Shown here one piece after another: positions 12 through 28,739 of a DNA stretch of 64,000 nucleotides. Both the position numbers and the translations under genes were made by a program. Every line of letters begins with the position of its first letter. Position 1 is the first letter of the stretch. The notes under the pieces are model-generated. The model was given only the letters and a program-made list of their open reading frames with translations, searched no databases and was not told the origin of the DNA. Source of the DNA: Halorubrum salinarum (lineage in GTDB: Archaea; Halobacteriota; Halobacteria; Halobacteriales; Haloferacaceae); the NCBI RefSeq assembly GCF_013267195.1, contig NZ_CP053941.1:2294001-2358000 (forward strand), read 5' to 3'.

Positions 12-485
12 CTATTCCGCGGACGGTTTGAGGCTGCTGATTTCTCTCTCAATCTCTTCGAGTACGCCAACCCGTTCCTTCATTTCATCTTCGTTGCGAT
101 GGTCTTGGATAAAGTCTACGAGGTTATCCAAATTATCTCCTGGCTCATCAACGACTTCCTTCTCAATGAGGCGGGCACCACCAGCGCCGTACCGGCTCAA
201 TACATCAAATTGGTCGTGGGGATCCAGAATAACCTCCGGGTCCTCTGTCACGGCATAGGCTAAGGACGCAGTAATCACCGACAACTGACTATCTTGGCCG
301 ATGTAGTTCCACCTGATGTAGTTGTCCTCACCTGGGTCATCGACCGACCGATCTTTTGCGTACCCAACGCTTGCCGCAAAAACCAGGAACCGAACCCGGG
401 AATCGAAAATCGGTGAGTCGCCATCAGCAAGCTCTTCGAACGCTTCGTTATTTTCGTATTTGAATGTAAGCGTACCTGAGGACAT
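12..485 (-). CDS. Dnd-system-associated small protein (protein 4-like)
   Basis: 157 residues, acidic, no membrane segment. The middle part has a helical SPIFDSRVRFLVFAASVGYA stretch, and the C-terminal 40 residues are charged and helical. Its ATG shares one base with the stop codon of the DndD-like ATPase gene, so the two are translationally coupled. Size, position directly after a DndD-like gene and overall sequence fit the family named DNA phosphorothioation (Dnd) system-associated protein 4. Its biochemical role is not known to me. It is the last gene visible before the window edge, so more operon genes may follow. Family assignment is moderately sure and rests on context as much as sequence. 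Confidence 0.6.
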   Translation of the reverse strand: MSSGTLTFKYENNEAFEELADGDSPIFDSRVRFLVFAASVGYAKDRSVDDPGEDNYIRWNYIGQDSQLSVITASLAYAVTEDPEVILDPHDQFDVLSRYGAGGARLIEKEVVDEPGDNLDNLVDFIQDHRNEDEMKERVGVLEEIEREISSLKPSAE

Positions 486-2500
486 TAATAATCACCTCCA
501 GTCTTTCTGACTAAGTCAGTGTACTCGTAATTCGTGCCGGATTCTTCTCCAGGGTCATGGTAATCCAGGTAGTAACGCTCACCGGCAACATGCTCCATCT
601 CGTTGGCGACTGCTTCGCTCCACTGGGACTGGGTTACCATGACCACGACTTGTTGTGCCATCTCCGGGAGCATCCGGCTCACACGCTCCTGATACGTCGG
701 GTCCAGCGAGCCGAATGGAGAGTCCATTATCATCGGATAGATGCCACCCTTGAAATACGTGGCATCCTCGTCAGATTCGTATCGCTCTCGGGCCAGTGAA
801 ATCAGAGTGGCTATGAAGGAGAGGCTGGCCACCTGCCGCTCTCCCTGCGATTGCGCGACCGGAATCTCCGATGTTTCGCCGACATCTTTTAAGATTTGTA
901 GAGTATAATTGTCTGAAATTTTCGCATAGTAGTTCTTTGCGATGATGTCCTGAAATATTTCGTTCACACGCTCATTAACGTTCTGGCGAACCTCATCCTG
1001 ATACTGCTGGAACAGTGTTGATATCTGGCTTTGTAGGTAAGCCGCCGTTTGTGCTCGTTTTCGAGCTAATTGTGCTTTCTCGTTCTCTTCTTTTGCTTCG
1101 GCGATCTCGTCTTCGAGTGTCTCGCGTTTGTCTTTGAGTTCCTCTATTTCTGAGTCTAAATTACGGATTTTCTCCTCGTACTCTCCGATTTTCCCAAGAA
1201 GATTACTGCGTCTGGACTCAAGTTCCGAAATACTTTCTTGCTCTTCGTCACTCAGCTGAGAGCTGATTTCGTCAAGGCGCTCCTGAATCTCTTGTTTTTT
1301 ATCGGCCTTCTGTGCCCGTCTGCTCAGGTGGCGTTCGATCTCTGAGTATAGCTTTTCCTGGTCACCACCAAGCTCACTCAGCCGACCTACGATCGACATC
1401 GCCGTCTCCTCAATTTCCGTCGAGCCTGCGCGTTCACGCCATCCCTTCACCTCTTCGTAAGGATCTGTTCCCTCTTTAAGCGGGCGGCCACAGATACATT
1501 CCTTCAGGTCAAGCAAGTCATCCACGAAGTGAGTCTTGATATCAGAGGGAATCTCACCTTTCTCCCGCTTCTTTTGAAGCATTTTACCCGTCTCTTCGAC
1601 CGCGGGCATCGCAAATGGTAGGAAGCCACGCTCCGAGATTTCGCGCGCAATATCGTCGTTAATGGCCTCGATATCTGAATTGACATCCGCGAGTTCTTCT
1701 TTCAAATTGTCGCGCTCTATCTGGAGTTCTCGGCTCCCTTCGAGCTGACTCAGTCGATCTTCAATGTCCGAAACCTCATCTTCCGTTTCGGATTTCGACT
1801 TTCGATGGCTTTCCAGCGTATCCTCCTTAGTGGTAATCTGTTGTGTGATCTCCTGTTTTTCACTGATGAGGTTTGATAGTTCTTCACTCCCCTGTTCCTG
1901 AGCAATTTGCTCATACTTTTCAACCGCATGCCCAAGATGCCTCTTAGAGCGCTCTAGAATAGTCAGCCCCATAATATTTCGAATAGCTTCCTGTATCTTC
2001 TCCTGGCCATCGATAGCAGATAATTCGTCGATAGTCTCACCATCGAAGAAGAATATCTCTTTGAGACGTTCAGGCATGATCTGATTGAGCATGGTACCCG
2101 GATTCGATCTGGTTTTCAGATTTCCGTGCTCGTCGGTGAACTCTAGCCGAATCTCGCTCGACTGTTCGACAGCAGAAATACCCTCGCGTTTACCGAATTT
2201 CTTGATGCGCGTTGCCTCGTACTCAGTTCCTTCGTGCTCAAACACAAGTGAGACGCTGACCCTAACACTGTCACCAGAGTTGACCTCTGCGACAGCACGC
2301 TCAGATACGAGTTTACCAGGCTTAGGAAGAGAGATGTTATCATAGAATAACCATGTAAACGCGTTCAGGAGTGTCGTTTTCCCGGAGCCGTTCGATCCGT
2401 GGATAACCGTCACGTTCTGGTCTTGGTCTGTGGAGAAGTGAATCGATTGCTCTCCATAGAACTGGCGGAAGTTCTGTAGCTTGAGGGTTATTAACTCCAT
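485..2500 (-). CDS. DndD-like SMC/Rad50-type ATPase
   Basis: 671 residues. An N-terminal Walker A (GSNGSGKTT, about residues 35-43) follows the LQNFRQFYGEQ opening typical of DndD. A long charged coiled coil fills the middle, broken near residue 335 by a zinc-hook-like CICGRPL. The C-terminal head has an ABC signature (SQGERQ) and a Walker B (MIMDSPFGSLDP). DndD proteins are ATPases of DNA phosphorothioation systems, thought to act on DNA structure during modification. The gene starts one base after the stop of the 51-residue gene and overlaps the next gene. A generic defence SMC ATPase is the alternative; the neighbours favour the Dnd family. Confidence 0.82.
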   Translation of the reverse strand: MELITLKLQNFRQFYGEQSIHFSTDQDQNVTVIHGSNGSGKTTLLNAFTWLFYDNISLPKPGKLVSERAVAEVNSGDSVRVSVSLVFEHEGTEYEATRIKKFGKREGISAVEQSSEIRLEFTDEHGNLKTRSNPGTMLNQIMPERLKEIFFFDGETIDELSAIDGQEKIQEAIRNIMGLTILERSKRHLGHAVEKYEQIAQEQGSEELSNLISEKQEITQQITTKEDTLESHRKSKSETEDEVSDIEDRLSQLEGSRELQIERDNLKEELADVNSDIEAINDDIAREISERGFLPFAMPAVEETGKMLQKKREKGEIPSDIKTHFVDDLLDLKECICGRPLKEGTDPYEEVKGWRERAGSTEIEETAMSIVGRLSELGGDQEKLYSEIERHLSRRAQKADKKQEIQERLDEISSQLSDEEQESISELESRRSNLLGKIGEYEEKIRNLDSEIEELKDKRETLEDEIAEAKEENEKAQLARKRAQTAAYLQSQISTLFQQYQDEVRQNVNERVNEIFQDIIAKNYYAKISDNYTLQILKDVGETSEIPVAQSQGERQVASLSFIATLISLARERYESDEDATYFKGGIYPMIMDSPFGSLDPTYQERVSRMLPEMAQQVVVMVTQSQWSEAVANEMEHVAGERYYLDYHDPGEESGTNYEYTDLVRKTGGDY

Positions 2501-2656
2501 TTATTTAATTTCGTCTTCGATGATGGACTCGATATCATCATTGATGCCGATCGGGTTGCCCATGTGTAGTTTATCTTTCTCCGCCTCAAGGACTCGCCGC
2601 ATCATCCGGGTAACCGTCTCTTCGTCAACGCCGTCTGGCAGGTCCTGACCGCTCAT
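2501..2656 (-). CDS. 51-residue DNA-modification-system small protein
   Basis: Short reading frame from ATG at 2656 to TAA at 2501, missed by length cut-offs. It starts MSGQDLPDGVDEETVTRMMR, is strongly acidic and ends DDIESIIEDEIK. It fills the gap between the helicase stop (2669) and the ATPase start (2500) almost exactly, 12 bases after one and directly touching the other. This is strong positional evidence for a real gene. Small proteins of this kind are annotated next to DndD-like and helicase genes as DNA-modification-system-associated small proteins. It may be a subunit or assembly factor; function is unknown. Confidence 0.72.
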   Translation of the reverse strand: MSGQDLPDGVDEETVTRMMRRVLEAEKDKLHMGNPIGINDDIESIIEDEIK

Positions 2657-2668
2657 TATAAAGAATCA

Positions 2669-4096
2669 TCATACATCAAGTAGGTTAAAATCTTTCTTTA
2701 ACTGACGTATGGATCCGGTGGAAGTCGGAATGCCTGGAATCGATGCGTCCGGGTGATTACGAGCTGATGCGGCAAAGGTACTCACACGCTGGAGCTCTTT
2801 CTGAACGAGATTTCGCTCAAGAGAAAAGAGCGAATCTTCACCTGACTTCCGGACGTCAGTTGGAGGCGCAACGACAAAATCATGAATTATTGCGTGGTCC
2901 TTATCCGCATGAGTCCGAAGAATCCGTCCACGGCGCTGGATAAATTGACGCGGATTGGACGAACTAGCGAGAATGAACGCCGTCTGTGTCGCTGGCACAT
3001 CAACACCCTCATCAAGACATCTTATAGCTACGAGTGCCTGTAGAACACCGGTTTCAAATTCACCTAAGAGACGTTCTCGTTCCGCCTGATCTTCTTCATA
3101 AGTGAATTGGTGAACTCTGAGTCCCAGCTCATTTCCCATGAGCTCAGTGATCGCTTCCAGTTGCCGTCTCGTTTCTTCACCCTCCTCTCCAACATTCCCA
3201 TCACCACTGTAGATGAGTGTATGGTGTAGATCTTCGAGGCCGGTCTTAACGAGTAACTCTCTGAGCTCCGGGATCTTATTGGCCGCAGAACCAACCAGTC
3301 TCGCACGTTTGAACAGTAGCTGCTTGAGCGTTTCATCCGCCTGTGAATCCGCGTCACCGATATCACCGCTCACAGCCGCCATCCGCTTGCCTATCGATCG
3401 TGAAAGCGCGAGATACTCTTCCTGCTCTTCCTCAGTCAGTTCAATGATATGAGGTATGTAGTAGTATTCAGCGAGATAACCGTTTTCGATGGCTTCCTCA
3501 AGTCCGTACTCAAACACAACCCCGTTGGAAAAGTAATTTGTTAGTACCTCTGTCCCTTCCTCATCATACCACCGCTGCGGTGTTGCGGATAAACCCAGTC
3601 GAGCACGGATGTTTTGAGGGAGCGACGATCGAAGATGTGGGGCACCCATATGATGGACTTCGTCTACGATGAGCATCGTGCGAGCCCCGTTGAGCCGGCC
3701 GATAATACTCTGGAAGTGGTCACTGGAGAATGTTTTGTGCGTCGTTATGACAGCGAGTATATCCCTGACACCAGAGTTATATTCAGTGATTTGGCCAGCC
3801 AACGAATCTGTCCAGCGGGTTCGTGACTGATACGCGAGGATTGGCGAAGCGCCGAAGTCATTCAGGTCGGACTTCCACTGGTCCACTAAATGCTGGTACG
3901 GGGCGGCAATGATGAGCGCTAATGAGTCGCCTTGGAGTGACGCGAGCTGGGATGCTGCCAATAAAGAAGTGACTGTTTTGCCTGTTCCCGTCGCCATATT
4001 CAGAATTCCTTGTCCTGAGCTATTCACCCATGCTTGTACGGCTTTATCCTGATATTCACGTGGTTCGAGCCAATCTGGTTTGGACAATGCTGCCAT
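2669..4096 (-). CDS. SF2 helicase, Dnd-restriction type
   Basis: 475 residues with a complete SF2 core: Walker A ATGTGKT (about 35-41), DEVHH Walker B, LSATP motif III, and motif VI QRRGRILR in the second RecA domain. It is compact, with no fused nuclease domain visible. Length and architecture match the helicases annotated as DNA phosphorothioation system restriction enzymes, which serve the restriction side of Dnd-like defence. It is the first gene of a four-gene leftward operon with the 51-residue protein, the DndD-like ATPase and the small associated protein. Any cleavage activity would have to come from a partner or an unrecognised domain. Confidence 0.82.
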   Translation of the reverse strand: MAALSKPDWLEPREYQDKAVQAWVNSSGQGILNMATGTGKTVTSLLAASQLASLQGDSLALIIAAPYQHLVDQWKSDLNDFGASPILAYQSRTRWTDSLAGQITEYNSGVRDILAVITTHKTFSSDHFQSIIGRLNGARTMLIVDEVHHMGAPHLRSSLPQNIRARLGLSATPQRWYDEEGTEVLTNYFSNGVVFEYGLEEAIENGYLAEYYYIPHIIELTEEEQEEYLALSRSIGKRMAAVSGDIGDADSQADETLKQLLFKRARLVGSAANKIPELRELLVKTGLEDLHHTLIYSGDGNVGEEGEETRRQLEAITELMGNELGLRVHQFTYEEDQAERERLLGEFETGVLQALVAIRCLDEGVDVPATQTAFILASSSNPRQFIQRRGRILRTHADKDHAIIHDFVVAPPTDVRKSGEDSLFSLERNLVQKELQRVSTFAASARNHPDASIPGIPTSTGSIRQLKKDFNLLDV

Positions 4097-4451: not shown

Positions 4452-5318
4452 TTATGTATAATCCTGGAGATTTTGCTGTTGTTGTTGTTCTCGAGGAACG
4501 TTGGTAATAATAACCTCAGCGACATCACCGCGATTGTTCGCATCGCTGTTAACCATTCTAGCGGCATTGACGTAACTAACGGTGAAATCCGAGAGGTGAT
4601 CATACAGTTCCCACACTGGTGGGGAATTCGATATTACAACATAGATATCATCTTTGTCCAGTCTGACTGCAAGATCTCGAAGCCGCTCTTGATCGGATTT
4701 ACTGAATCCATCTGATTGGTATTGAGTGAAGTCAGCGGTTTTTGAGACTGGTTCGTATGGAGGGTCAAAATAAACGAGATCTTTCGATGTAGCACGTTCA
4801 GCAATATATGTAAAATCATCATTGTGGATGTCGATGTCATCCAGAATAACACTCCCAGCACGAATTTGTCGTTTCCGGATAAAATCCGGGTTGCTGTGCT
4901 CCCCAAACGGTACATTGAATCCCCCGGACTGGTTTTCTCTGTAGAGTCCGTTATATCCGGTGCGATTGAGATACAACATAAGACTAGCCTCTTCAATTTC
5001 CTGGTCTACAGACCGCTCATCAAGAGCATGTAACTCATTGAATCGCTCCCGAGCCTCGTAATAATACTCCTCTTCATACGAGTGTCGTTGGTTCTCTTCG
5101 ATAAGTCGCTCTGGGAAATCACGTATAATCTTGTAAAATGTGATAAGACGACGGTTTAGATCGTTTATTGATCCGGTTGTCGGTTCTAGTTCGAAGAAGA
5201 CAGCGCCACCGCCGATAAATGGTTCATGATATTGATCGTATTTAATCGGGAAACGAGAACGAAGATCGGAGAGGAGTTGGCGTTTTCCACCTACCCATTT
5301 GAGAATCGGTTCTGCCAT
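4452..5318 (-). CDS. Dam-type (D12 class) DNA adenine methyltransferase
   Basis: 288 residues from the ATG that begins MAEPILKWVGGKRQL; a longer upstream frame lacks family sequence. It has the SAM-binding motif I FIGGGAVFF and the catalytic DPPY tetrad (YFDPPYEPVS), the order of D12 class N6-adenine methyltransferases, and family-typical length. The C-terminus has a short glutamine run (QQQQQ) from CAA/CAG codons. The gene lies between two other methyltransferase genes and the Dnd-type operon, separated from the latter by 350 bases and divergent from a 66-residue frame. It is either the protective methylase of this module or a solitary one. Confidence 0.92.
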   Translation of the reverse strand: MAEPILKWVGGKRQLLSDLRSRFPIKYDQYHEPFIGGGAVFFELEPTTGSINDLNRRLITFYKIIRDFPERLIEENQRHSYEEEYYYEARERFNELHALDERSVDQEIEEASLMLYLNRTGYNGLYRENQSGGFNVPFGEHSNPDFIRKRQIRAGSVILDDIDIHNDDFTYIAERATSKDLVYFDPPYEPVSKTADFTQYQSDGFSKSDQERLRDLAVRLDKDDIYVVISNSPPVWELYDHLSDFTVSYVNAARMVNSDANNRGDVAEVIITNVPREQQQQQNLQDYT

Positions 5319-5669: not shown

Positions 5670-7214
5670 TTAATCAAATGAGTTCAAACCTGCTTGGTGG
5701 CCCGCTTGCTTCTGTCCCCGATCTTCCATGGGGTTCTCGACTTGAATATTGAGATTCGAGACGAGTGGAGGGCGTGTTTTTGACCAATACTGTAACCAAT
5801 CGTTACTAGCGACGCATTCGATCCAGTCCCCGATTTCCATGTTGGATTCGGCCCAGTTGTGTTTGCCTTGGTAGAGGTACACCTCCTCATCAAGGAGTGT
5901 GGGTGGATCAGTACGTAGTGTATCCAGATATTCGTTGACCGTACTGAACATAGGATCAAAATCAACGCCATAGTAGTCGCCAGATCCCTTGTCTTCTGAA
6001 AGCATACCCTCCATTGCAGCGTCCATTGACACGTCATTGAAATCCTCTGCCGATTCGCAGACGAACACAAGGCTGGCTGCTGGATCTGCGTCCTGATCGA
6101 ATTGAGTGGGGTCGCTGGTAGCTTGAATAAATTCGATCTGCCCATCACGGAGGCTGTTTCTATCGGTTGTGATCAGTTCCTTGTAGAGTTCATAGGCATA
6201 CTTGTGTATGCGTAGGGTGTAGATCCGATCCTGGAGGAGTGCTTGCTCATCCTGGAGTGTTGATTGGACGCTACCAACTTCGCGTAGCGCAGTGGGGCGG
6301 ACGTGATCCTCGTAGTAGTCTATATATTCACTATTAAGCTCGAATCCGAGCGGCTTCCGACCAAGTGCCTCTGCGATAGCGAGGGTTGTACCAATCCCCG
6401 CGAAGGGATCGAAGACAACGTCACCAGGATCAGAGGCGAGGTGGACAATTCGTCGAACAAGCCCCTCCGGGAACGGACTCGGATGGTAGCTGACTTTTGG
6501 CCCCCACTGACCCTGTTTCGGGATCGGGAATTCCCATACGTTGCTCGGAACGATCCCTTTTGGGCTGTATCGTTCTGGGTAGTTCACCCACCATTTTTTG
6601 AATTCGTCGGGGTCAGTGATGCGGATTGCGTCTTTGTTGTATGTGAACTCATCTGTCTTCGAGTACATGGTAATGTGTTCGTAGACGTTCCGCAACCTGC
6701 CCTTCTGATGCCACGGCCGCGTACGAAGTTTATCCCAAATGATGTTATCCTCCATACGCCAAGATTCAGGTAGTGGGTCGTGTACTTCACCACACGTTTG
6801 ACACACGAGTGTCCCGTTACCGCGGTTTCGTTGAAGATGACCGCTACAGTCTGGTTCAAGACACGTTTTGTGATTTTGTAGATTTTCGAGTTCGTCAGCG
6901 ATATCGAACGGTAACCGTACGACTCGGCCATTAGTTTTGTACGTGTCTGTGATTATCCACAGTGTACAGTCGTCAGCGGCGATTTCGTAACACTGCTTGT
7001 ATATTGATCTGATGTCGTCGAGGAATGATTCGTAGTTTTGCTGACCGACCTGTTCATCGTGATCGCCGTAGTCGATCAGATCTGCGTACGGCGGAGAGGT
7101 AATTATGGTATCGACGAGCCCATCGACGTCTTCGAATTCGGCTTCCAACCGTGATTTCAGCTCTCGTGAGTCATGCTGGTAGATACGAAAACGAGAGTCT
7201 GGCTCGTCGCTCAT
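5670..7214 (-). CDS. Beta-class DNA methyltransferase with zinc-ribbon insert
   Basis: 514 residues from ATG at 7214 (MSDEPDSRFRIYQHDSREL); a TTG start at 7280 would add 22 poorly typical residues. The catalytic motif TSPPYADL comes before the SAM motif DPFAGIGTT, the circularly permuted beta-class order. TSPPY is common in N4-cytosine enzymes, although N6-adenine is possible. Between them sits a four-cysteine ribbon (CLEPDC ... CQTCGE). A C-terminal region of about 200 residues with conserved aromatic positions follows. The whole protein is paralogous to the methyltransferase half of the next upstream gene, including the insert and the C-terminal part, so the pair arose by duplication. Confidence 0.88.
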   Translation of the reverse strand: MSDEPDSRFRIYQHDSRELKSRLEAEFEDVDGLVDTIITSPPYADLIDYGDHDEQVGQQNYESFLDDIRSIYKQCYEIAADDCTLWIITDTYKTNGRVVRLPFDIADELENLQNHKTCLEPDCSGHLQRNRGNGTLVCQTCGEVHDPLPESWRMEDNIIWDKLRTRPWHQKGRLRNVYEHITMYSKTDEFTYNKDAIRITDPDEFKKWWVNYPERYSPKGIVPSNVWEFPIPKQGQWGPKVSYHPSPFPEGLVRRIVHLASDPGDVVFDPFAGIGTTLAIAEALGRKPLGFELNSEYIDYYEDHVRPTALREVGSVQSTLQDEQALLQDRIYTLRIHKYAYELYKELITTDRNSLRDGQIEFIQATSDPTQFDQDADPAASLVFVCESAEDFNDVSMDAAMEGMLSEDKGSGDYYGVDFDPMFSTVNEYLDTLRTDPPTLLDEEVYLYQGKHNWAESNMEIGDWIECVASNDWLQYWSKTRPPLVSNLNIQVENPMEDRGQKQAGHQAGLNSFD

Positions 7215-7345: not shown

Positions 7346-10252
7346 CTAGTCCGATTTAATCACCGACTCGATTGATTTACCGGATGGTTGGGTGAGTTGG
7401 AACTCGTGATTTCCGGACAGCGGTCGAGAAATAGTATCCATCGAGTGTTTTGGATGGTTTACTTCGAGACCGAGGTTGGTAACGATCGGTGGAGTTTCGT
7501 CGTCGGCATATCGTTGCGTCCACTCTGCGCTGTTCTGTGTCATTGATTTCCACTCTGAGAAAGTGGTTTTCTCCGTGTACACGTAGTGCCGCCCGTCTTC
7601 GTACACGAACAAGTCGTCTGGCAGGTGTGTGTACGTACCGTCCGCGACTTCAGTCGTGAATTCGTCGGCCGTTAGCACAATCGGGCGGGCTTTGACGCCG
7701 AATCCGGAGCAAGGTCGCATTGTTGTAACTTCTTCAGCAGTCTCATCATAAGTGAGCGCATCACGAGCTGTTGTTTCCTCATCCACAATTAACACGATAT
7801 CGACTTGTCCGTGCGTATCAGGCGCGACAGATTGGTATCCGAGTTCTCGACTGACTAAGAAGATCGTGTGTACGTCGAGCTGAGCTGGATTGGAAAGACC
7901 GAGTTCCCCGGCGAGTGTCCGAACCAATTCGCGTGCATACTTCGTTTGACGTAACCCGCAAATTAGTCGGTCTAGATCGTCCTGTGTTGTAGTTGGCTCT
8001 GCTCTCTCGTGCTGTGTTTTGAGGTGTTCCTGAAGCTCTGGATACGCGTTACAGTACTTCTCATTGAGTTCTATTCCAATGCCGTTTCGCTCCATGAGCT
8101 CGGCCTGTGCGATAGTGACACCTGATCCTGCAAACGGATCCAACACCACGTCACCTGGATCCGTTGAGAGGGTTAGCATTCGCTCAACAAGCGCAGGTGG
8201 GAACGCGGCCGGATGATCGAACACGTCTACGTCACCCGTAAAGGAACCACGTGTTGGTGGTTCAAATTCCCAGATATTCTCGGGGAGCTTGCCACGTGGG
8301 TGATACCGCTCGGGGAAGTCTGCCCACCACTGTTTGAAATTGTCTGGATGTGATTCGCGGATTCGGTCCATCTTCAGATCAAAATCGGGTTTTTTGCTGA
8401 AACAAAGAATGTATTCGAACACATTCCGGAGCCGTCCTTGCTTAGTGTACGGGAGCGCCTTGTTCTTGTTCCAGACGACGATATCTTGTAGAATCCACGA
8501 ATCGTTATTCTGTATGGAATGACCGCAATGCGGACAATTCGCTTTGCGACCCTCCACCATGTCCACACCTCCTAAGAGAGTACTCTCACAGCTTGGACAT
8601 TCTATACCGTGGTCAAGGTTTTGACAGACTCTGGCGATATCAAACGGGAGCTGAACGATCTCTCGATTCCGCCGAAATGTGTTGACAACGACCCACAGCG
8701 ACCCGTCCTGTTTCGTTAGTTTATATACATCACCGAACACTTCTCGGAGTTCATTGAGGTACTCTACATACGAGCCGTGCTGACCTACTTCGTCGTCGTC
8801 ATCTGAGCCATACTCTTTCAGATCGTAGTATGGCGGAGACGTGACAGTCGTATCTAAGAGTTGTTCGTCAGTCTCTGTAGTATTTTTTTGGTAGGTACGG
8901 AGCTCAGAGACAGCACTCCGAGCATCCGCATTATGGAGCCCGAATACATCTGAATCGCTGTCAATTGTTGTGGACTGACTGCGGATTTCAGTTGTCCCAT
9001 CTTCCTCTGGTGTCGTATCTTCTCCGGATGCCCCGCCGGTTGAAATCCGTTTCCCGTACTCACGCCCTTCAGGAAGAAATTCCTCGGTAGACAGTTCAGA
9101 TTGAATCTCTCTCCATAACTCGCTGTTCGTATCTAGCCGAGTTTTTTTATTATCCGTTGGCACCTCGCTGGTGTCTCCTATCGGTATGATTTGGAGTGTC
9201 CCTCCGAAGTAGTTATACTGGTTATTGCGTGTGAGATCAAACACGTCCTCGAATACGGAAGTCATCAAGACCCGACCGTTTGCGTAAATATCAATACCCT
9301 GTCTGTTCTGACTTGGGCGGTATCTGTACCGGAACTTTTCGCTTTGTGTTAATAAACCCGGGCACTCCTCTTTAGCACGGTCTGTCATCGCGTCAATATC
9401 CAGTGTCCCGGACTCGTACTCTACTCTGTATTGCTCGCCCCTCGGGGTCGTAACCTCAAATTCGTGGCTCTTCTTTTGTGTCTCATCAGAGTACCTTGGC
9501 CAGATTGGAACTACATCGAAACACTCTCTCTCATTTGTTTTGAGGTCGTGATAACTCACTACAATTCGATTGTCCTCACGTGCAGACAGTAACCGTCGAA
9601 AGAGAGTACCTAGTCGCTCACGGACGTATTGGACTTTTTTATCGAGTGAGTCCGCTGACGGCCAAACATCATTATCAAATTGGGCCCTGGCACAAGTAGC
9701 ATGAACACGTGTCCCGTGATCGGCCTGATTTAATTCAGAAATTTTGTCTGGAATTCCGATCTCCCAATCATTCTGACTCCCAGTAGAAATGGGAAGGTCA
9801 CCTGTAATGGGTCCATCAACACGCAAACAGTCGCTCGTTTTCGTCTGTGTTACGAGGGTAAATTGATTCGTGTCATTCTGGAGCTCACGCTGTTTGAGAG
9901 ACTCCTCAAACCATGCGAGGCTGGCTTTGAGACCCCATCCGACATTATTTAGAATGCCATCGGAAATCTCTTTATTTCCTGTTCGAAATACATGGTTTTG
10001 GAGTTGCTCACGAGTAATCCCTGGCCCATTATCTGAGATATAGGTCGTGACTGTATCTTCGCCACGCACAAACGTCAGCGAGATTGTCACCTGTTCATCT
10101 GGGTCTTCAAAGTATGACTCGTCATCTACAGATGCCGCAACTGAATTATCAATAAGTTCTTGTAACGCATCTAAATATGTCTCGTGTTGCTTTGCCATTC
10201 CTGAAGCAAGCATTTCCAGCTCAACAGCAGACTCACATGTCTCACTATTCAT
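7346..10252 (-). CDS. GHKL ATPase-DNA methyltransferase fusion
   Basis: 968 residues from ATG at 10252; a GTG four codons upstream is possible. Residues 1 to about 400 form a GHKL (Hsp90/MutL/MORC-like) ATPase with the Bergerat motifs ELIDN, SDNGPGI and NVGWGLKAS. A linker follows, then a beta-class methyltransferase with TSPPYYDL, a four-cysteine ribbon (CPSC ... CPHCGH) and DPFAGSGVT, and then a C-terminal region like that of its neighbour. GHKL domains clamp or remodel DNA on ATP binding in MutL and MORC proteins. The fusion suggests ATP-gated methylation or methylation-dependent sensing. It is first in the leftward series, 130 bases upstream of its paralogue. Confidence 0.85.
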   Translation of the reverse strand: MNSETCESAVELEMLASGMAKQHETYLDALQELIDNSVAASVDDESYFEDPDEQVTISLTFVRGEDTVTTYISDNGPGITREQLQNHVFRTGNKEISDGILNNVGWGLKASLAWFEESLKQRELQNDTNQFTLVTQTKTSDCLRVDGPITGDLPISTGSQNDWEIGIPDKISELNQADHGTRVHATCARAQFDNDVWPSADSLDKKVQYVRERLGTLFRRLLSAREDNRIVVSYHDLKTNERECFDVVPIWPRYSDETQKKSHEFEVTTPRGEQYRVEYESGTLDIDAMTDRAKEECPGLLTQSEKFRYRYRPSQNRQGIDIYANGRVLMTSVFEDVFDLTRNNQYNYFGGTLQIIPIGDTSEVPTDNKKTRLDTNSELWREIQSELSTEEFLPEGREYGKRISTGGASGEDTTPEEDGTTEIRSQSTTIDSDSDVFGLHNADARSAVSELRTYQKNTTETDEQLLDTTVTSPPYYDLKEYGSDDDDEVGQHGSYVEYLNELREVFGDVYKLTKQDGSLWVVVNTFRRNREIVQLPFDIARVCQNLDHGIECPSCESTLLGGVDMVEGRKANCPHCGHSIQNNDSWILQDIVVWNKNKALPYTKQGRLRNVFEYILCFSKKPDFDLKMDRIRESHPDNFKQWWADFPERYHPRGKLPENIWEFEPPTRGSFTGDVDVFDHPAAFPPALVERMLTLSTDPGDVVLDPFAGSGVTIAQAELMERNGIGIELNEKYCNAYPELQEHLKTQHERAEPTTTQDDLDRLICGLRQTKYARELVRTLAGELGLSNPAQLDVHTIFLVSRELGYQSVAPDTHGQVDIVLIVDEETTARDALTYDETAEEVTTMRPCSGFGVKARPIVLTADEFTTEVADGTYTHLPDDLFVYEDGRHYVYTEKTTFSEWKSMTQNSAEWTQRYADDETPPIVTNLGLEVNHPKHSMDTISRPLSGNHEFQLTQPSGKSIESVIKSD

Positions 10253-10679
10253 GAATCGAAACACACCTCCTGAAATGAATGTTAGATACCATTCTACGTT
10301 CTTGTCGACACCTCTGACTGAGAGATCTTTAATCTATATGATTACAGTTGATTTTTCGGTAGTGTCTGGATAAGCTGGTTCAGTATGAAGGGAACGTTTG
10401 TAACCAACTACCAGCGGTGTTTGGCTTGGCAGTACGTGTTTAAAATATTTATTTACTACTTTTACTTGATAAAAACACGTTCGACGGCATTCAAAAATCA
10501 AAAGAAGCAGCTGAGGTTATTCCTCAGGACCGCCGAACCCGTCTCGGTGGGTCGCATGTTTGGTGTTGCCGGTGGGGATCTCCACCTCACAGTCAGAGCA
10601 ACGAACCTATTACGCGCCGGTCGAGGAGGCGCCAATAATAATATATTTCTAACACTTATTTCGCTGAGCCGCATCTAGT
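10253..10679. other. AT-rich intergenic region with a decayed zinc-finger relic
   Basis: About 430 bases between the GHKL-methyltransferase and the TFB-like gene. The half nearest the methyltransferase should carry its promoter; the AAAGATCTCTC area near 10325 is AT-rich on the minus strand. The other half contains the relic listed at 10517-10606. No intact gene is seen. Confidence 0.45.
10517..10606 (-). pseudogene. Relic of a small C2H2 zinc-finger protein
   Basis: The minus strand reads VRCSDCEVEIPTGNTKHATH, then RDGFGGPEE and a stop. This is a CxxC-x10-HxxxH arrangement typical of a haloarchaeal small zinc finger. Two stop codons stand immediately upstream in the same frame, so no start is available. 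A more decayed copy of the same pattern lies near 11480-11560. Both look like remains of a once-repeated gene. Confidence 0.35.
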
Positions 10680-11405
10680 TTAATTATTCAACTCAGCCAA
10701 ATCCTGATACCGGCTACGTATTGAAATGGTCGAAACATCAGATACTTTTGCGACATCGTTCTGGGTTATTTTGACCCCTTCTTTTTTTGCGGCCCAGTAT
10801 ACAGCCCCAGCTGCTAGGGCGGTAGGAGCTTTGCCGCTGATGACGTTTTTTTCTTCAGCGTTTTCGATCAGTTCGTGGGCAGTCTTACGTATATTTGGCT
10901 CCAGTTCCAGTTCCTCACAGTACCTGTCAATATACTGTCCAACATCAAAAAATGACGATGGATCAAGTCCAAGAGTATTGACAATCTTTTTTGATCTTCT
11001 TAGGAGGTGTTTCTTCGTGACTACTGCTGGACCGATGTCAGCAATAGCTGTTGGACTAATTCCCACACCGTTGATTTTACATGCACAATAGAGAGTTGCT
11101 GCAGCAATTAACTCCGTAACGAACTGCCTCTCACTTGCCTTCAGATATTGCTCGAATAACTCTTCAGCCATCGTGTCAGCCCCTCCTGTGATATTCAGTT
11201 CTGTGGCATACTGCTCTATCTCGCTAGCTGCACACCTAATAATAAATTCATCAGTATGCGCGTCTCGAAAAGTGAATTCTTCTCTAAACCAGCCATCAGT
11301 ATTATGCTTCGTAGTTGTATGTGAATTATCTAATTTATCGGCATCATTGACGTCTTCAAGCAACTCTTCGATTTCTTCACGAAAACCTTCTATCGAGTCT
11401 GTCAT
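10680..11405 (-). CDS. TFB-like cyclin-fold protein lacking zinc ribbon
   Basis: 241 residues. The C-terminal two thirds form cyclin-like helical repeats of the TFB/TFIIB type (LIAAATLYCACKINGVGISP, later LAAGAVYWAAKKEGVKIT with a helix-turn-helix-like end DVAKVSDVSTISIRSRYQDL). The N-terminal 60 residues are acidic and contain no CxxC zinc ribbon, which normal TFB needs to recruit RNA polymerase. It may therefore bind promoters or DNA without initiating transcription normally. A longer paralogue lies at 18914-19933, sharing the LLRRSKxI ... GLDPSxFF ... YxDRYC block. The two flank the giant helicase and membrane protein genes. Confidence 0.75.
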   Translation of the reverse strand: MTDSIEGFREEIEELLEDVNDADKLDNSHTTTKHNTDGWFREEFTFRDAHTDEFIIRCAASEIEQYATELNITGGADTMAEELFEQYLKASERQFVTELIAAATLYCACKINGVGISPTAIADIGPAVVTKKHLLRRSKKIVNTLGLDPSSFFDVGQYIDRYCEELELEPNIRKTAHELIENAEEKNVISGKAPTALAAGAVYWAAKKEGVKITQNDVAKVSDVSTISIRSRYQDLAELNN

Positions 11406-11839: not shown

Positions 11840-14800
11840 TCACTCTGATCCAGAATCAGAAAGCTCGTCGAAATCATTCATAATATCGCTAATAATCCCT
11901 TTGTCGGAATTTGTTACAGTGTCGTCGTGATCACTAGCACCTTCCTGGTTTCCGCCTTCAGTGTCTAGCTCGGTCACTGTCGCATCCGTCGCTGTACTTG
12001 TCTCAGGATCTGTTTTAGCAGACTTACTTCGATCTGTGGTGTCTACTTCGGTCGATGAACGAGTGGCAGTGGCTTCCGTTTCATCGAATGCCTGCTCAAT
12101 CGCGGCGGTGTACGTGCCGAAGTACGTGGCGTAGGTGGTGGCGGAGACGTGCCCGTGCTCGTTCATTTCGGTCGTGGTGGGCCGGTGTCCAAGTTTGTGG
12201 GCGATGCGGTGCAGGTCGTCGATGAGTCGGGCTTTGTTATCGATGCCGGCTGAGTCGAGTGCGTTCTGCCAAGATCCGAACACGCGCGTGACGTCATTCA
12301 CGGAATACGCTGTGGTGTCGCTTACGTCACCCGCTTTCAACGGCCGGTCGATCGTCTCGCCGACGCGCTGTATCGCGTCGAGGAGATCGCCCCGGCTCGG
12401 GGTGCCGCTGCTGCTCGATTGACTTCTCCCACTGCTCGAAGCGCTTTTTGCGCCGCTCGTACTGGCGTCTCGGCTACGCTCGGAAGTCGAATTCGTGTCC
12501 GTGCCCGCTTGTGACGGCAGGTTAATATCCGGCGTGTTGCCCGCAGAGCCGGTGTCAGTTGGCGTGGCGTGGAAGTCTTTCGTGCTGCTGAGTTCGTGGC
12601 CGGTTCCGGTGCTTGTCTCCCAACTTTTGTGTCGGGCTTGCTCGATTGTGTAAGTGTCGCCGACGGTCCAGTCGAGTGAGAGGTCGTGCGTGCTCCAGAT
12701 GTCGAGCGGGACTTCGGTGCCGTCTGTGAGTGCGACTTGTAGGCGGGCGTCGCGTTTCGAGCCGGGGTTTTGGTCGCGGTCGAGGACGGTGACGGTGAGT
12801 GTGTCGACGCGACCGTCGGGCAGGATGGGACCGTCCGTGTCCATTTTGGTATCGTCCGGTGTTGGGCGGTCGGCGTCAGGGTATGCAGGGAATTCGTCGA
12901 GGAGTTCGAAGGCCGTGTTGAGTGCGTCGGTGCTGGTGATAGCGACGGGGAGCGGCGTGTTCGATTTGGGTGTGACGGGGACGGCGTGGTCCCAGTCTTC
13001 GATTGCGTCGCCGAGTAAGTGCTGGATGCGGTCGTTGACGGCGGCGAATTCGACGTGGTGGAAGTCAGTGACGCGGTCGCCGTCGCCGTGCGCGTCGCGG
13101 TAGTCGTTGATGCTGAAGTCGTTCCGGTCGCGCTGTTGGGTTCCGTAGTTTGGTGCGCCGTCTGGCCCGTCCTCGCCCCAGTGATCGGCCACGGCTTCGG
13201 CCCATCGCTCCATTGGGGTGGTACCATCGGTGTCGAGTTTGTCCGCGAGTTCGGTTAACAGGTGCTGGAACCGATCGAACGCGACGTACAGTTCAGCAAG
13301 TTCGTTTGAAGGAATCTCAGCGGTGGTACTCGAATCGACTGACTGCGGTTGTTTCTCGGTCGTCGCCGTGGATGTCGTGTCTGTCGAGGTCTCGTCAGTT
13401 GAGACGGCTGCGTCGTCACCGGTCGCATCGGTGTCTGCCAATCCTGCTTCGACGAGTGCAGCGTCCACACTGCCGAATGCGTCATCGTACTCATCTGGGT
13501 GGTGACTGCCGACGGAGTACAGGAGCTTCCGGTCGATCGTATCCCACTCATCTGCGAGATCCTGTAGTTCACCGATGAGTTCGTTCTGCTTATCGGTCAG
13601 TGTCGATTGGGCTGCGATGACTGTCTTCACGGTGTCCGGGTCGGCGACGCCTGCTTCAACGAGTGCGGCGTCCAAACTCCCGAAGACCTCTTCGTACTCG
13701 TCCGGATGGTGACTGCCGACGGAGTACAGGAGCTTCCGGTTGATGTTATCCCAGTCAGTCGCCAACGCCTGTAGTTCACTGATGAGCTTGTCACGCGTGG
13801 AGGTCTCAGTGGGTGTGTCCGTAGCAGGTGCCTCAGTATCCGAGACAGTGGACGACGTACTCGTTGTCTCCGCCGGCTCGCTTGTATTTTGCGTGGTACT
13901 AGCCGAACCAGTTTTCGCGGAGTCAGTGTCAGTGTCGGGTGAAGATGGTGAGGACTGGTCTTGGTCGTGGACGCCGGCGGCGGCGATGGCAGCGTCAAAA
14001 CTGCCGAAGTGCTCGCCGAGTGTGGCTGGGGTGTAGTGGCTGTGCGTGGTGATGTCACTTATTGTCGGCACGCCATCGACGGTGTCGGCGACGCGTTGTA
14101 CGTCATCGATGACGCGTTGGTCCGGATCGATGTCGGCAGCGTGTAGCGCATCGGTCCACGATTCGAACACGTCCATGTAGCGTGCGGGTGCGTACCTGCT
14201 GTGCGTGTCCATGTCCTCAAGAGTCGGGTACCCGGCAAGGACGCCATCAACACGTTGAATTTCAGCACATAGTTCGTCCACGTCTGGTTGTACAGACTCA
14301 GCATGTTCGTCTTCGGAGTCGGTTTCGGTGTCATCAGAGTCACTGTCCTCGTCTGCGTGTGCGGTCAGGACAGTGTGCGTTGCGTCCGGAAGTGTGATTG
14401 TGACCGTGTTGTTCTCACTTGGAAGCTCGCTGGTTTGGTTCTGGTACCCAGCGCGAGACACGAACAGCGACCGGTCACTGCCAGACGTTGGCGGTGTGAT
14501 GGTGACGGTGCCGTCCGCGTCGGTAATGCTCTCGGTGGAGTCAGTGGTTGTTTCGGCGATGACTACAGCGTTCCCGATCGGTGAGTCGTTCGTGTCGGTG
14601 ACTGTGACGGTGATGTCCGTCGGAGTGGTGTCGCTCGTGTCCTCCGACTGGTCCGTGGATTTGGGTTGGGTGACGCTGTCGTGGACGGGCATCGCGCCGG
14701 GGGTGAGTGATTCGGGCTGCCAGTACGTCGTGAGTACGGGCTGGTCGCGCGTGTCGTCGAGTGTCAAGCTGATCTCGTCGATGAGTTCATCTAACAGGGT

Positions 14801-16948
14801 GCGGGCGACGTCGTCGTCGACCATGTCGCTCGTGTCGCGGTTGTCGGCGATGGTGGCGCGTGCGCCGGCGGTTTCGAGTTCGCAGAGGATGTGACTGGTG
14901 GTGTCGGTGACGGCGACGAACCCGGGGTGTTCGCGGAATCGGGACCCGAGTGCGCGGAATTCGGCGGCGCGGCGGAGGAGTCGCCGGCCGTCTTCGCCGG
15001 GGAGACGCGCGTCGGCCTCGCCGGGGATGGTGACGACGTGGTAGAAGTGCGCGTGCTTGTCGCCGGTCGGATTCCGGAGGATCCGGCCGATGCGTTGAAT
15101 GAGTGACGCGTTCACCCCGCCTTTAGCGAGGTTCACGGCGATGCCGGCGTCGGGCAGGTCAACACCGACGCCGAGCACGTCACCGGGCCCGACGAGCACG
15201 CCGGCGTCCGCTTGTTTGAACGCCGCGATCGTGTCGTACGGCGCGGCTTCGTCCTTCGCCGGCGTGTACACGGTGTCCGCGTCGAACCAGTCCGCAAGAT
15301 GTTCAGAGACAGCGTCGGCTTGCGCGTAACTCTGTACGAGGACGACGGCTTTCCGATCCGGAACGTGTTCGGTGAGGAGCTGCCGGATCGTGTTGTGCGG
15401 CGGGTTGAGTTGCCAGCGTTTCGGTCGGCGGGAGAACGCTGCGGTGGCGAACGTGTCGAACGATTCTGACTGATCGCGCGCGTCTTTCCCGTCTTTACTC
15501 TGCGCGAACGACCGGAGGTCCCGGAGCGTCTCGAACGTGTCCGGGACGGTCGCTGGGACGTCACCGGTGAGCTCTTGCGGTGTGAATTTGTGCGTGTCGG
15601 TGTCGTATGCCGGTGTGAGTGTGGTCGTCGAGTCGGCGACCCCGGAGAGCGTGTCTCCAGAGTTGCTTGCGGCGTAACACACGTCCCACCGGAAATCTGC
15701 GATGACGTTCTGCTCGCGGGCTTCGGTGATGCCGAACTCGATGCACTGTGCGAGGTTCGCTTCGAGCGCGTCTTTGACGCCGGAGTCACCGAGCCATTCG
15801 TCGTCTATCGACCCGGACATCGCTAGGACGCTGTCGGCGTTCGTCGTGAGGTCGTCGAACAGGTCGCGCCATCCGCGACTGTCGCGCCGCCCGCTGCTGT
15901 ACCGGTGGGCTTCGTCCAGAATGACGAGGTCGTAGTGGAGCCCGGGGTCCGCTGCGAGGAGTTCCTGTGCGGTGCGGAATTCGATGTCGCCCCACGCGAG
16001 TTCGATGCGGCGGTCACCGTCGCTGTCTGTTTCGGTGCGGCTCCGCGGGATGTTCAGGTGTTCGTCGAATTCGCTTTGCCACTGTTCGAGGAGTAAATCC
16101 TGTCCGGCGACGATAAGCACGGTTGCGCGTCCGGTCGGTGACCGTGTTGCTGCCGGGATGTCAGCCGTATCGGTAGGGTGTAAGTCACCGAACAGGTGTG
16201 CGATGGCGGCGAGGCCGAGCACGGTTTTCCCGGTGGCGGTCGCCATGTTCACGTACCCGGTCGTCCCGTTGGCAACCCAGTTCGTGATGGCGCGTCGCTG
16301 ATGATCCCACAGCGGCGTCACCATTTGCGGTCTATCGAGGTGTGTTAACAGGCTGTCCCCGCCGATGCTGTTTCCGGTGTCTGCGGTGATTGAGTCGATG
16401 AGAATCTCTGCGTAGTTCGTCACAGCCGGGTCGGAGAACAGTTGATACAGCAGGTCAGCGACGGCTTCCGGTTGCTGTAGCGGTTGGCGGGATAACGTCT
16501 CGTCGCCGTGTTGCGTGATGAGTTTCTCGATGAGCGCCTCGGTTGCGCGGTTGAGATCACCGATTTCGCTGTCGTCTAACCCGAGTTTCGTGAGTTCGAC
16601 GCGCAGCTCGTTCAGTCGGAAGGCCAAATCCCCGATATCGCTTGCGTCGTGCTCGCTAATGAGCTGCGGCAGGTCTGACTGTGTCCCTGCAAGCGCTCGC
16701 AACCCGTCAACGTAGTGCGGGCCGCACGCGGTACCGAAGTCCATGCGGCCAATCGTCGCCCCCTGATCGAACGCCGAATCAGTGGTTCCGAGCGCGACCC
16801 CGTACGTGACATCGATCGCGGCCCGGTCGATTTGTGACGGCCAGTCGCCTTGCGTCAACGAGTCTTTGGCGAGCCGCGCGTCGTAGAACTGCTCGTCAAG
16901 ATCCGTGTACGAAGTGCGATCATCGACCTGATTTTTGAACGGATCCAT
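11840..16948 (-). CDS. Giant SF2 helicase with six HNH-associated repeats
   Basis: 1,702 residues from ATG at 16948; GTG at 16975 adds nine. After an N-terminal region comes an SF2 helicase core (Walker A ATATGKT, about 236-242; ILDEAHRYSSG; motif VI QRIGRILR). Next is a carboxypeptidase-regulatory-like beta domain (about 760-830). Six repeats of about 50 residues, each with a FGSxxxAxxxAG-type core, match the homing-endonuclease-associated (HNH) repeat family and probably bind DNA: two at about 14285-13975, two at 13790-13435, two at 12390-12085. An OB-like domain (about 12800-12560) resembles the C-terminus of the next upstream gene. Acidic serine/threonine linkers join the parts. No nuclease catalytic motif is visible. 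Confidence 0.82.
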   Translation of the reverse strand: MDPFKNQVDDRTSYTDLDEQFYDARLAKDSLTQGDWPSQIDRAAIDVTYGVALGTTDSAFDQGATIGRMDFGTACGPHYVDGLRALAGTQSDLPQLISEHDASDIGDLAFRLNELRVELTKLGLDDSEIGDLNRATEALIEKLITQHGDETLSRQPLQQPEAVADLLYQLFSDPAVTNYAEILIDSITADTGNSIGGDSLLTHLDRPQMVTPLWDHQRRAITNWVANGTTGYVNMATATGKTVLGLAAIAHLFGDLHPTDTADIPAATRSPTGRATVLIVAGQDLLLEQWQSEFDEHLNIPRSRTETDSDGDRRIELAWGDIEFRTAQELLAADPGLHYDLVILDEAHRYSSGRRDSRGWRDLFDDLTTNADSVLAMSGSIDDEWLGDSGVKDALEANLAQCIEFGITEAREQNVIADFRWDVCYAASNSGDTLSGVADSTTTLTPAYDTDTHKFTPQELTGDVPATVPDTFETLRDLRSFAQSKDGKDARDQSESFDTFATAAFSRRPKRWQLNPPHNTIRQLLTEHVPDRKAVVLVQSYAQADAVSEHLADWFDADTVYTPAKDEAAPYDTIAAFKQADAGVLVGPGDVLGVGVDLPDAGIAVNLAKGGVNASLIQRIGRILRNPTGDKHAHFYHVVTIPGEADARLPGEDGRRLLRRAAEFRALGSRFREHPGFVAVTDTTSHILCELETAGARATIADNRDTSDMVDDDVARTLLDELIDEISLTLDDTRDQPVLTTYWQPESLTPGAMPVHDSVTQPKSTDQSEDTSDTTPTDITVTVTDTNDSPIGNAVVIAETTTDSTESITDADGTVTITPPTSGSDRSLFVSRAGYQNQTSELPSENNTVTITLPDATHTVLTAHADEDSDSDDTETDSEDEHAESVQPDVDELCAEIQRVDGVLAGYPTLEDMDTHSRYAPARYMDVFESWTDALHAADIDPDQRVIDDVQRVADTVDGVPTISDITTHSHYTPATLGEHFGSFDAAIAAAGVHDQDQSSPSSPDTDTDSAKTGSASTTQNTSEPAETTSTSSTVSDTEAPATDTPTETSTRDKLISELQALATDWDNINRKLLYSVGSHHPDEYEEVFGSLDAALVEAGVADPDTVKTVIAAQSTLTDKQNELIGELQDLADEWDTIDRKLLYSVGSHHPDEYDDAFGSVDAALVEAGLADTDATGDDAAVSTDETSTDTTSTATTEKQPQSVDSSTTAEIPSNELAELYVAFDRFQHLLTELADKLDTDGTTPMERWAEAVADHWGEDGPDGAPNYGTQQRDRNDFSINDYRDAHGDGDRVTDFHHVEFAAVNDRIQHLLGDAIEDWDHAVPVTPKSNTPLPVAITSTDALNTAFELLDEFPAYPDADRPTPDDTKMDTDGPILPDGRVDTLTVTVLDRDQNPGSKRDARLQVALTDGTEVPLDIWSTHDLSLDWTVGDTYTIEQARHKSWETSTGTGHELSSTKDFHATPTDTGSAGNTPDINLPSQAGTDTNSTSERSRDASTSGAKSASSSGRSQSSSSGTPSRGDLLDAIQRVGETIDRPLKAGDVSDTTAYSVNDVTRVFGSWQNALDSAGIDNKARLIDDLHRIAHKLGHRPTTTEMNEHGHVSATTYATYFGTYTAAIEQAFDETEATATRSSTEVDTTDRSKSAKTDPETSTATDATVTELDTEGGNQEGASDHDDTVTNSDKGIISDIMNDFDELSDSGSE

Positions 16949-17015
16949 TATTCGGGGCGATAACTGCTTGTCCACTTGTCATCAACCAGTAAATAAAACA
17001 GTATCGGCGGTGCCG

Positions 17016-18913: not shown

Positions 18914-19933
18914 TTACTGTACATGAGTCGCTCGGAACTCATCTAACTCTGCCTGTGTAATGACAGACTGTAGACCAGAAGCACGAGATTTAATCGCATC
19001 TGAATCTTCGTCGATATGCTGTGACAGAGTTTTGAGCTTGACATCCCCGTCCGTGAGCTGAGATGCGCGGCGCAGTGCAGCTAATCCCCACAGTGTCGCG
19101 TCGGCGTCGACAGGGTACTGTTCGCTGCGTGCCTCCCGGATAAGGAGTTCAGCTAGTTCCCGCGTAGGATTGTCAACTCCGCTCGCATCTACAACGTGGT
19201 TGATGACGCCAACTGGGTCCGATGGGAGCGAATCTACCTGTCGCAGCTCCGCGCGCTGTTCCTGATACCGGTTTCTGATCGTTACTTCGGAGACGTTCGC
19301 TACACGGCTGAGTTCCTGTTGCGTTCGCTTCTCCCCGACGTCGAGACACGCGTTGTACACGGCGGCAGCGGCCCACCCGGACGGGCTTTTCCCGCTGGAC
19401 AACCCGGACTCTTCGGTGATTTCGATGATTTCCCGTGCACGCTCGTTGACTGCGTCAGTCACGTCAAGCGCGTCGCAGTACCGGTCCACGTAGTGTTCGC
19501 TGCCAAAGAACGCAGACGGATCGAGTCCGACGGTACTCGCAATATCTTTCGAACGGCGAAGCAGTGCTTTCCGCGTGACAACGGTATCGTCAGCAGCGAC
19601 GAAATCAGTCGGATCCAACGGGACTTCCGTGACTTTGACCGCGCAGTACAAGCACGAGGCGGCGACTAATTCGAGCGCGGTCCCGATGAGGTCTCCGCGC
19701 TGGTTACGGTACTGATCGCGCAGGGATTTCGCAAGATCGACGGCCGCCTCGGGAACATCTAACTCAGCCGCTAACTGGTTGATCCGGCCATCTACGATCG
19801 CTGTTTGCCGCTCAGCAGACACCGACTGTCCGAACGTGATGTTCTGTTCAATCTCTGCAGGTGATGTAGAATCGACGTCGCTGAGTACATCTGAGAGAAT
19901 GTCGTCAATCTCTTCGATGAACTCCTCACTCAT
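18914..19933 (-). CDS. Second TFB-like protein, zinc ribbon absent
   Basis: 339 residues. An acidic N-terminus of about 50 residues has no cysteine ribbon. Two TFB-type cyclin repeats follow (LVAASCLYCAVKVTEVPLDP; WAAAAVYNACLDVGEKRTQ with the DNA-reading SRVANVSEVTIRNRYQE). An extra helical region of about 110 residues at the C-terminus is not seen in the shorter paralogue. It is clearly paralogous to 10680-11405. It is read in the same direction as the membrane protein and helicase genes and may control them or act with them. A TFB that has lost its polymerase-recruiting domain could be a repressor or a non-transcriptional DNA-binding subunit. Confidence 0.75.
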   Translation of the reverse strand: MSEEFIEEIDDILSDVLSDVDSTSPAEIEQNITFGQSVSAERQTAIVDGRINQLAAELDVPEAAVDLAKSLRDQYRNQRGDLIGTALELVAASCLYCAVKVTEVPLDPTDFVAADDTVVTRKALLRRSKDIASTVGLDPSAFFGSEHYVDRYCDALDVTDAVNERAREIIEITEESGLSSGKSPSGWAAAAVYNACLDVGEKRTQQELSRVANVSEVTIRNRYQEQRAELRQVDSLPSDPVGVINHVVDASGVDNPTRELAELLIREARSEQYPVDADATLWGLAALRRASQLTDGDVKLKTLSQHIDEDSDAIKSRASGLQSVITQAELDEFRATHVQ

Positions 19934-23057: not shown

Positions 23058-23367
23058 GTCTTTCGATATAGAATTCCAAATTACAAATAATCCGATGCTT
23101 AGTTTCAATAAAATATAGTTTGAATATTCTATTGCGATTCTCTAGGGCTGATTGGTTCTGCTATATGATCGACACACCGACCGGGTAAGGAATTCTGACG
23201 AGGTTACATCGCAACTACAGGGGCAAACAGTTCTGTTGAATCGTAATCAGACTGGACGGGAGACTGGATTGAAAGTCTAGTGTGGAGGAATTGTGGGGGC
23301 TCAACTCTACTCTTCGTTTTACTTTCACCCCGCTGAGTGTAGGTTTATTACCCCGCCGGTAAGTGAT
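23058..23367. promoter_or_regulatory. Divergent promoter region with mre11 TATA box
   Basis: 310 bases between the leftward 303-residue gene and the rightward mre11 gene. GTTTATTA at 23343-23350 lies about 20 bases before the mre11 ATG (23368), the spacing of a haloarchaeal TATA box for a leaderless or nearly leaderless transcript. The opposite side is AT-rich (AATATTC, TATATT) and can serve the leftward gene. No other feature is seen. Confidence 0.5.
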
Positions 23368-28723: not shown

Positions 28724-28739
28724 CACGATCACACAACTC

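Follow-up and report, generated by a model that had tools for sequence, protein, structure and literature searches.

A GHKL-S5 ATPase fused to a beta-class DNA methyltransferase in haloarchaeal Pbe-type defence loci

Closest described systems

The systems that come closest to the locus considered here are the PbeABCD/CxC-ABC-ATPase-DndE systems with methylases (PMC6459918; PMC10853773), which share with it a PbeA helicase, a small PbeB, a CxC-type PbeC and a DndE-like PbeD, and in which methyltransferases are likewise found in place of phosphorothioation genes. Pbe antiviral activity requires a mark on the host DNA, and solitary pbeAC genes lie near methyltransferases in 155 of 320 cases (PMC6459918); CxC systems with cytosine methylases have also been catalogued (PMC10853773). 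The main text of neither paper mentions GHKL proteins. The present locus, situated in a 64,000-nucleotide stretch of the Halorubrum salinarum genome that was analysed as a whole (hereafter the window; NZ_CP053941.1, 2,294,001 to 2,358,000), differs from these systems in that a GHKL-S5 ATPase is joined to the N-terminus of one methyltransferase, PbeA is without the HKD nuclease, and McrB/McrC-like genes follow.

The MORC and paraMORC1-5 proteins of restriction-modification (R-M) systems, as presented in the accessible part of PMC2292703, also combine a GHKL and S5 module with SF2 helicase and methylase neighbours, and some are fused to nuclease or TIR domains; a fusion to a DNA methyltransferase, as in the window, does not appear among the architectures in that part of the paper. 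In VcSduA, a GHKL-Shedu nuclease (PMC12137116), an N-terminal GHKL ATPase controls a C-terminal DNA-acting enzyme within a single defence protein, this enzyme being a PD-(D/E)XK nuclease rather than a methyltransferase. Type III R-M systems (Mod + Res) similarly bring a beta-class methyltransferase together with a ResIII-type helicase, whereas the window has a GHKL module, a type II-like methyltransferase, and PbeC and PbeD, which lie outside type III systems.

GHKL ATPases have long been predicted to act with methylases in restriction and, as MORC and SMCHD1, with methylated chromatin. With GHKL and methyltransferase covalently joined, the coupling of ATP to methylation becomes testable on one purified protein, which makes the fusion more interesting than a routine R-M gene. 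No description of a GHKL-methyltransferase fusion was found in the openly searchable literature, and the architecture is apparently undescribed. The original prediction, that no known defence family has exactly this layout, thus appears to hold for the fusion itself but not for its surroundings, as CxC/PbeABCD systems with methylases (PMC6459918; PMC10853773) and GHKL proteins in R-M operons (PMC2292703) had already been described.

Architecture of the fusion gene

The plus strand of positions 7346-10252 is full of stops, and the minus strand holds one open frame (7346-10264), in agreement with the single open frame that had been predicted with no strand given. The likely start is the ATG at 10252, as relatives start at the same methionine and a GGAGG lies just upstream. 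The gene is laid out as follows:

7346-10252, minus strand: GHKL-S5 ATPase/beta-class DNA methyltransferase fusion, 968 aa (ATG 10252, stop 7346)
residues 1-400 approximately (9053-10252, minus strand): GHKL-S5 module
residues 401-436 approximately: variable linker
residues 437-750 approximately: methyltransferase, with a C4 zinc-ribbon insert at Cys 552/555/573/576
residues 751-935 approximately: C-terminal domain, common to the neighbouring methyltransferase (MT2)

Profile searches recognise both halves above the Pfam gathering thresholds, namely HATPase_c_3 (1e-6) and HATPase_c (3e-6) at residues 32-120 and N6_N4_Mtase (PF01555, 1.6e-45) at residues 471-740, and the motif set of the protein lies far beyond chance. 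Two of the fusion proteins carry the bare RefSeq label 'DNA methyltransferase'.

As predicted, the Bergerat-fold motifs are all there; they read N-box QELIDN, G1 DNGPGI, G2 NNVGWGLKAS and G3 HGT, and the motifs beyond those originally listed include the S5-domain lysine (EVPTDNKK). Motifs and lysine are invariant in the 11 fusions found (see below), which implies selection for ATP use. An AlphaFold model of the N-terminal half, built from 18 homologues, reached a pLDDT of 81.9 and a pTM of 0.85, and a Foldseek search of the PDB with this model retrieved the ATP-bound SMCHD1 ATPase module (1e-13) together with Hsp90, topoisomerase VI B (TopoVIB), MORC3/MORC4, TRAP1 and GyrB, all with a probability of 1.00. 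The TM-scores against these structures are moderate (about 0.5), so that the fold and the module are clear and the family is divergent. By its motifs and predicted fold, the N-terminal 400-residue part is a true GHKL-S5 ATPase module, and the suggestion that this half might not be a GHKL fold at all is contradicted by the model and its PDB matches.

A profile of the N-terminal half detects Bergerat cores in some 150 further haloarchaeal genomes, for the most part at E-values of 1e-5 to 1e-8, and the one such protein that was inspected is a histidine kinase. Among the sampled Halobacteriota other than Halobacteria, the fusion's GHKL subfamily was not encountered. Outside haloarchaea only distant GHKL proteins (22-25%) turned up, on lactobacillus plasmids and one phage-like contig, and none of these was seen fused to a methyltransferase.

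The C-terminal half carries TSPPY (motif IV), the C4 zinc-ribbon insert and DPFAGSG (motif I), in that order, and since motif IV precedes motif I it is, on sequence grounds, a beta-class DNA methyltransferase; from the TSPPY motif alone, it is probably an m4C enzyme. The fusion motifs are kept in all 11 homologous fusions with the exception of motif I, so that of the two predicted methyltransferase motifs TSPPY recurs in 11/11 and DPFAGSG in 10/11. A first model of the full-length fusion (8 sequences) had a pLDDT of 49.5 and was used neither for the methyltransferase half nor for domain packing.

Recurrence of the fusion and its Pbe neighbourhood

The fused frame recurs in 11 haloarchaeal loci (the window and ten other genomes), in searches that reached near relatives and included a scan of genome contigs with two peptide patterns. 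Within the genus these are the window genome, H. xinjiangense, H. halodurans, H. aidingense and two further genomes (G206, G372); the others are Halobaculum rubrum (plasmid), Halorhabdus amylolytica, Halosimplex pelagicum, a Haloquadratum MAG and Halococcus dombrowskii (plasmid). The copy in the Haloquadratum MAG is cut by a contig end, and in the 10 other loci the gene is uninterrupted, i.e. relatives do have it free of frameshifts. The fusion thus spans several genera, on chromosomes as well as plasmids, and is never split within its clade; viral contigs, scanned with both alignments, gave no fusion. When the window gene is compared with its H. xinjiangense counterpart (90% identical), most changes in both halves fall at third codon positions (146 vs 23 and 10 at the other positions, and 106 vs 22 and 8), a pattern by which both halves are under purifying selection. 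A misassembly or frameshift joining two neighbouring genes is ruled out by the recurrence of the fused frame, and for an artefact in the wider sense, including an N-terminal half that is not GHKL, nothing was found in favour; with the frame uncut in all loci but one and the GHKL fold modelled with good confidence, the chance of it is practically nil.

The fusion heads a series of genes on the same strand that contains a complete pbeABCD set; its members are listed here in order:

5670-7214, minus strand: MT2, a second beta-class N4/N6 methyltransferase (likely ATG 7214; longest ORF from 7280)
4452-5318, minus strand: Dam/D12-class adenine methyltransferase (TIGR00571; likely ATG 5318, longest ORF from 5393)
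2669-4096, minus strand: PbeA-type SF2 helicase (TIGR04095); most relatives have an N-terminal HKD/PLD nuclease that is absent here
2501-2656, minus strand: PbeB candidate, an acidic protein of 51 aa encoded between pbeA and pbeC and conserved at 13 further PbeA loci
485-2500, minus strand: PbeC, coiled-coil ABC ATPase, DndD-like, with the CxC motif CICGR
12-485, minus strand: PbeD, DndE-like clade-2 protein (PMC10853773), with a weak match to TIGR04062 (dnd_assoc_4)

MT2 and the C-terminal half of the fusion are paralogues, at 34% identity. Past the window edge, PbeD is followed by a McrB-like AAA protein, a McrC-like protein and then RAMP-like CRISPR genes. The RAMP-like proteins lie left of the window, beside the McrBC-like genes (L003:10954-14399, minus strand), and their sequences, with one weak Cmr3 match, suggest a CRISPR effector module.

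Membership in the Pbe family can be followed gene by gene. PbeA is matched by the PADLOC PbeA profile (2.6e-165) and by TIGR04095 (1e-168), the latter with 562 bits against a 600-bit cut-off that no haloarchaeal genome of the sample passes. PbeC is matched by PADLOC PbeC (1.4e-269) and has the CICGR motif, the 51-aa ORF at 2501-2656 takes the position of PbeB, and PbeD is matched by dnd_assoc_4 (1.9e-9, below its cut-off), adjoins PbeC and is homologous across Pbe loci. The HKD domain is carried by the vast majority, not all, of PbeA proteins (PMC10853773); the window PbeA (475 aa) starts at profile position 247, and there is neither an HKD/PLD nuclease on it nor an HKD remnant upstream. HKD-less PbeA proteins (about 470-565 aa) are a common natural type in haloarchaea, seen in the window (2669-4096) and in 18 other loci; dndC is present in one of 18 neighbourhoods fetched, and McrB/McrC adjoin in two (L121, L123).

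No match to dndC (DndC sulfurtransferase) was found in the window's genome, so that the locus is not a DndCDEA-PbeABCD phosphorothioate system, and the methyltransferases occupy the place that phosphorothioation genes have in canonical Dnd-Pbe systems. Phosphorothioation was rejected as the mark on the same ground.

Beside the fusion, MT2, PbeA and PbeC are found in 11/11 loci, D12 in 8/11 and McrBC in 4/11. Of the genomes in one class sample, the PbeA-positive ones have the fusion in 8/64 cases and the PbeA-negative ones in 0/318 (Fisher p=4e-7). As the fusion gene always sits with PbeA/PbeC (11/11 loci), its assignment to a defence family, as had been predicted, is well supported. The island is also rich in unrelated defence and regulatory genes, as would suit a stand-alone epigenetic regulator that is a mere passenger there, but PbeA/PbeC and MT2 adjoin in every fusion locus, even when the Pbe module belongs to another clade, and such a regulator is highly improbable. 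Comparison of the window with H. xinjiangense gives 82-90% identity for the three methyltransferases, against only 39% for PbeA and 27% for PbeC, so that a conserved modification module has come to be paired with a different restriction module. In their respective trees, the fusion's methyltransferase part and MT2 fall into matching groups, which means that the two are inherited together. The fusion loci thus show a methyltransferase trio paired with different Pbe modules, and they lend support to the proposal that base methylation may stand in for phosphorothioation in Pbe systems.

The G+C content of the window is about 45-66% at positions 1-42000 and about 72% at 42000-64000, which fits an acquired defence island, and the island adjoins Mre11/Rad50, NurA- and HerA-like genes at 23293-31105 (named from sequence only). 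TFB (TFIIB) paralogues are found in this low-GC region at 10680-11405 and 18914-19933 (minus strand), of which the former lies immediately upstream of the fusion gene and may act as a dedicated transcription factor. Sigma-70 promoters and terminators were no more frequent than in shuffled sequence, in scans ill suited to archaea. A 1711-aa protein encoded at 11840-16975 (minus strand) combines a PbeA-like SF2 helicase with a CarboxypepD_reg domain and five copies of HNH_repeat (PF18780), a unit also found in proteins of four fusion loci.

Proposed role and alternative readings

The fusion is proposed to be the subunit that recognises and modifies DNA in a PbeABCD (CxC-ABC/DndE) defence system based on methylation, with the GHKL-S5 module as an ATP-driven dimer clamp, a reading given slightly better than even odds (about 0.55). 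GHKL-S5 modules of MutL, TopoVIB, MORC and Hsp90 dimerise upon ATP binding. In the fusion, the GHKL-S5 module would dimerise in the manner of MutL, MORC and TopoVIB once ATP is bound and close around DNA; this clamp would tether the methyltransferase to the DNA, making recognition ATP-dependent. On host DNA, the fusion and MT2 would set m4C marks, perhaps with each enzyme acting on a different strand of an asymmetric site. Where an invader site is unmarked, the clamp in its closed state would recruit or license PbeA (an SF2 translocase) and a scanning pair of PbeC and PbeD, and the invader DNA would be blocked. As the window PbeA is without its HKD nuclease and McrBC follows, McrBC may supply the missing cleavage, a role that would be optional given that McrBC is near only 4/11 fusion loci.

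A stricter version, in which ATP-gated methylation and Pbe licensing proceed only from an ATP-closed dimer of the MutL/MORC/SMCHD1 type around DNA, is tentative and somewhat doubtful. Were it true, the fusion would be (i) an ATP-gated modification enzyme and (ii) a single protein that links the reading of methylation with GHKL clamping, as has been proposed for eukaryotic MORC. The initial idea of an 'ATP-gated methyltransferase or modification sensor' is a plausible hypothesis.

If the sensor part of that idea were the whole of it, the fusion would work like the recognition subunit of type III (Mod) or type I (HsdM/S) systems: the methyltransferase fold would read the mark, the GHKL clamp would pass the 'unmarked' state to PbeA (a ResIII-type helicase), and MT2 and the D12 enzyme would do most of the host marking. 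PbeA is indeed of the ResIII/SF2 class, and in the accessible part of PMC2292703 the GHKL-S5 proteins of R-M operons usually occur with SF2 helicases and are proposed to loop DNA from the recognition to the cleavage site. GHKL genes also adjoin Pbe genes where there is no fusion to a methyltransferase, so that their job may concern restriction more than methylation. Still, all catalytic methyltransferase motifs are kept in the fusion, and type III Mod is a far worse match to it than type II (MTase_III 6.9e-12 vs MTase_II 8.3e-41), all of which leaves a pure sensor possible yet unlikely.

The modularity of these loci was compared in 38 further haloarchaeal Pbe loci. A separate GHKL gene (824-876 aa) and a 454-aa N6/N4 methyltransferase flank PbeA-C-D in four of them (L139, L142, L146, L147), and in another (L121) the order is GHKL-D12-McrB-McrC-PbeA-PbeC-PbeD, all as separate co-directional genes. 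GHKL and methyltransferase are hence recurrent Pbe partners that form one polypeptide in the window's lineage. Locus L141 has two unfused methyltransferases without GHKL, one nearer the fused type (38% vs 30%) and the other nearer MT2, so GHKL is not required by every member; long branches make the placing of these two in trees unreliable, and an origin of the fusion from such a pair is a suggestion. In four genomes (G204, G268, G351, G372), McrB/McrC have as neighbour a standalone GHKL relative of about 40% identity, which has an acidic linker and a C-terminus that is nuclease-like. These relatives, and the existence of a comparable unfused methyltransferase in L141, would suit a passive fusion, in which GHKL-S5 is a dimerisation or structural domain, or one tied to a McrBC-type partner, with no control over methylation; the invariant Bergerat motifs and S5 lysine, with the selection for ATP use that they imply, and the lack of any split within the clade make this quite unlikely.

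Other unusual proteins were met in the same survey. In one of 659 aa (L145:2072-4051, minus strand), the DNA-wrapping propeller of the GyrA C-terminus (PF03989, 3.9e-62) is linked to a cytidine-deaminase domain (PF00383, HAIE...PCNRC); its cluster recurs in L123, L148 and L150, within Pbe loci that have a methyltransferase or close to such loci (the deaminase part itself being verified in L145), and from its domains it is possibly a DNA-wrapping deaminase effector. In L127, L129, L135 and L136, a cassette adjoining the Pbe genes encodes two TGT-type proteins, one a divergent family member (413 aa, PF01702) and the other TGT-like (673 aa), along with a 157-aa protein and a GHKL protein (517 aa, BbrUII/HgiDII-like); it might stand for DNA modification of the deazaguanine type, with the GHKL protein as the restriction partner.
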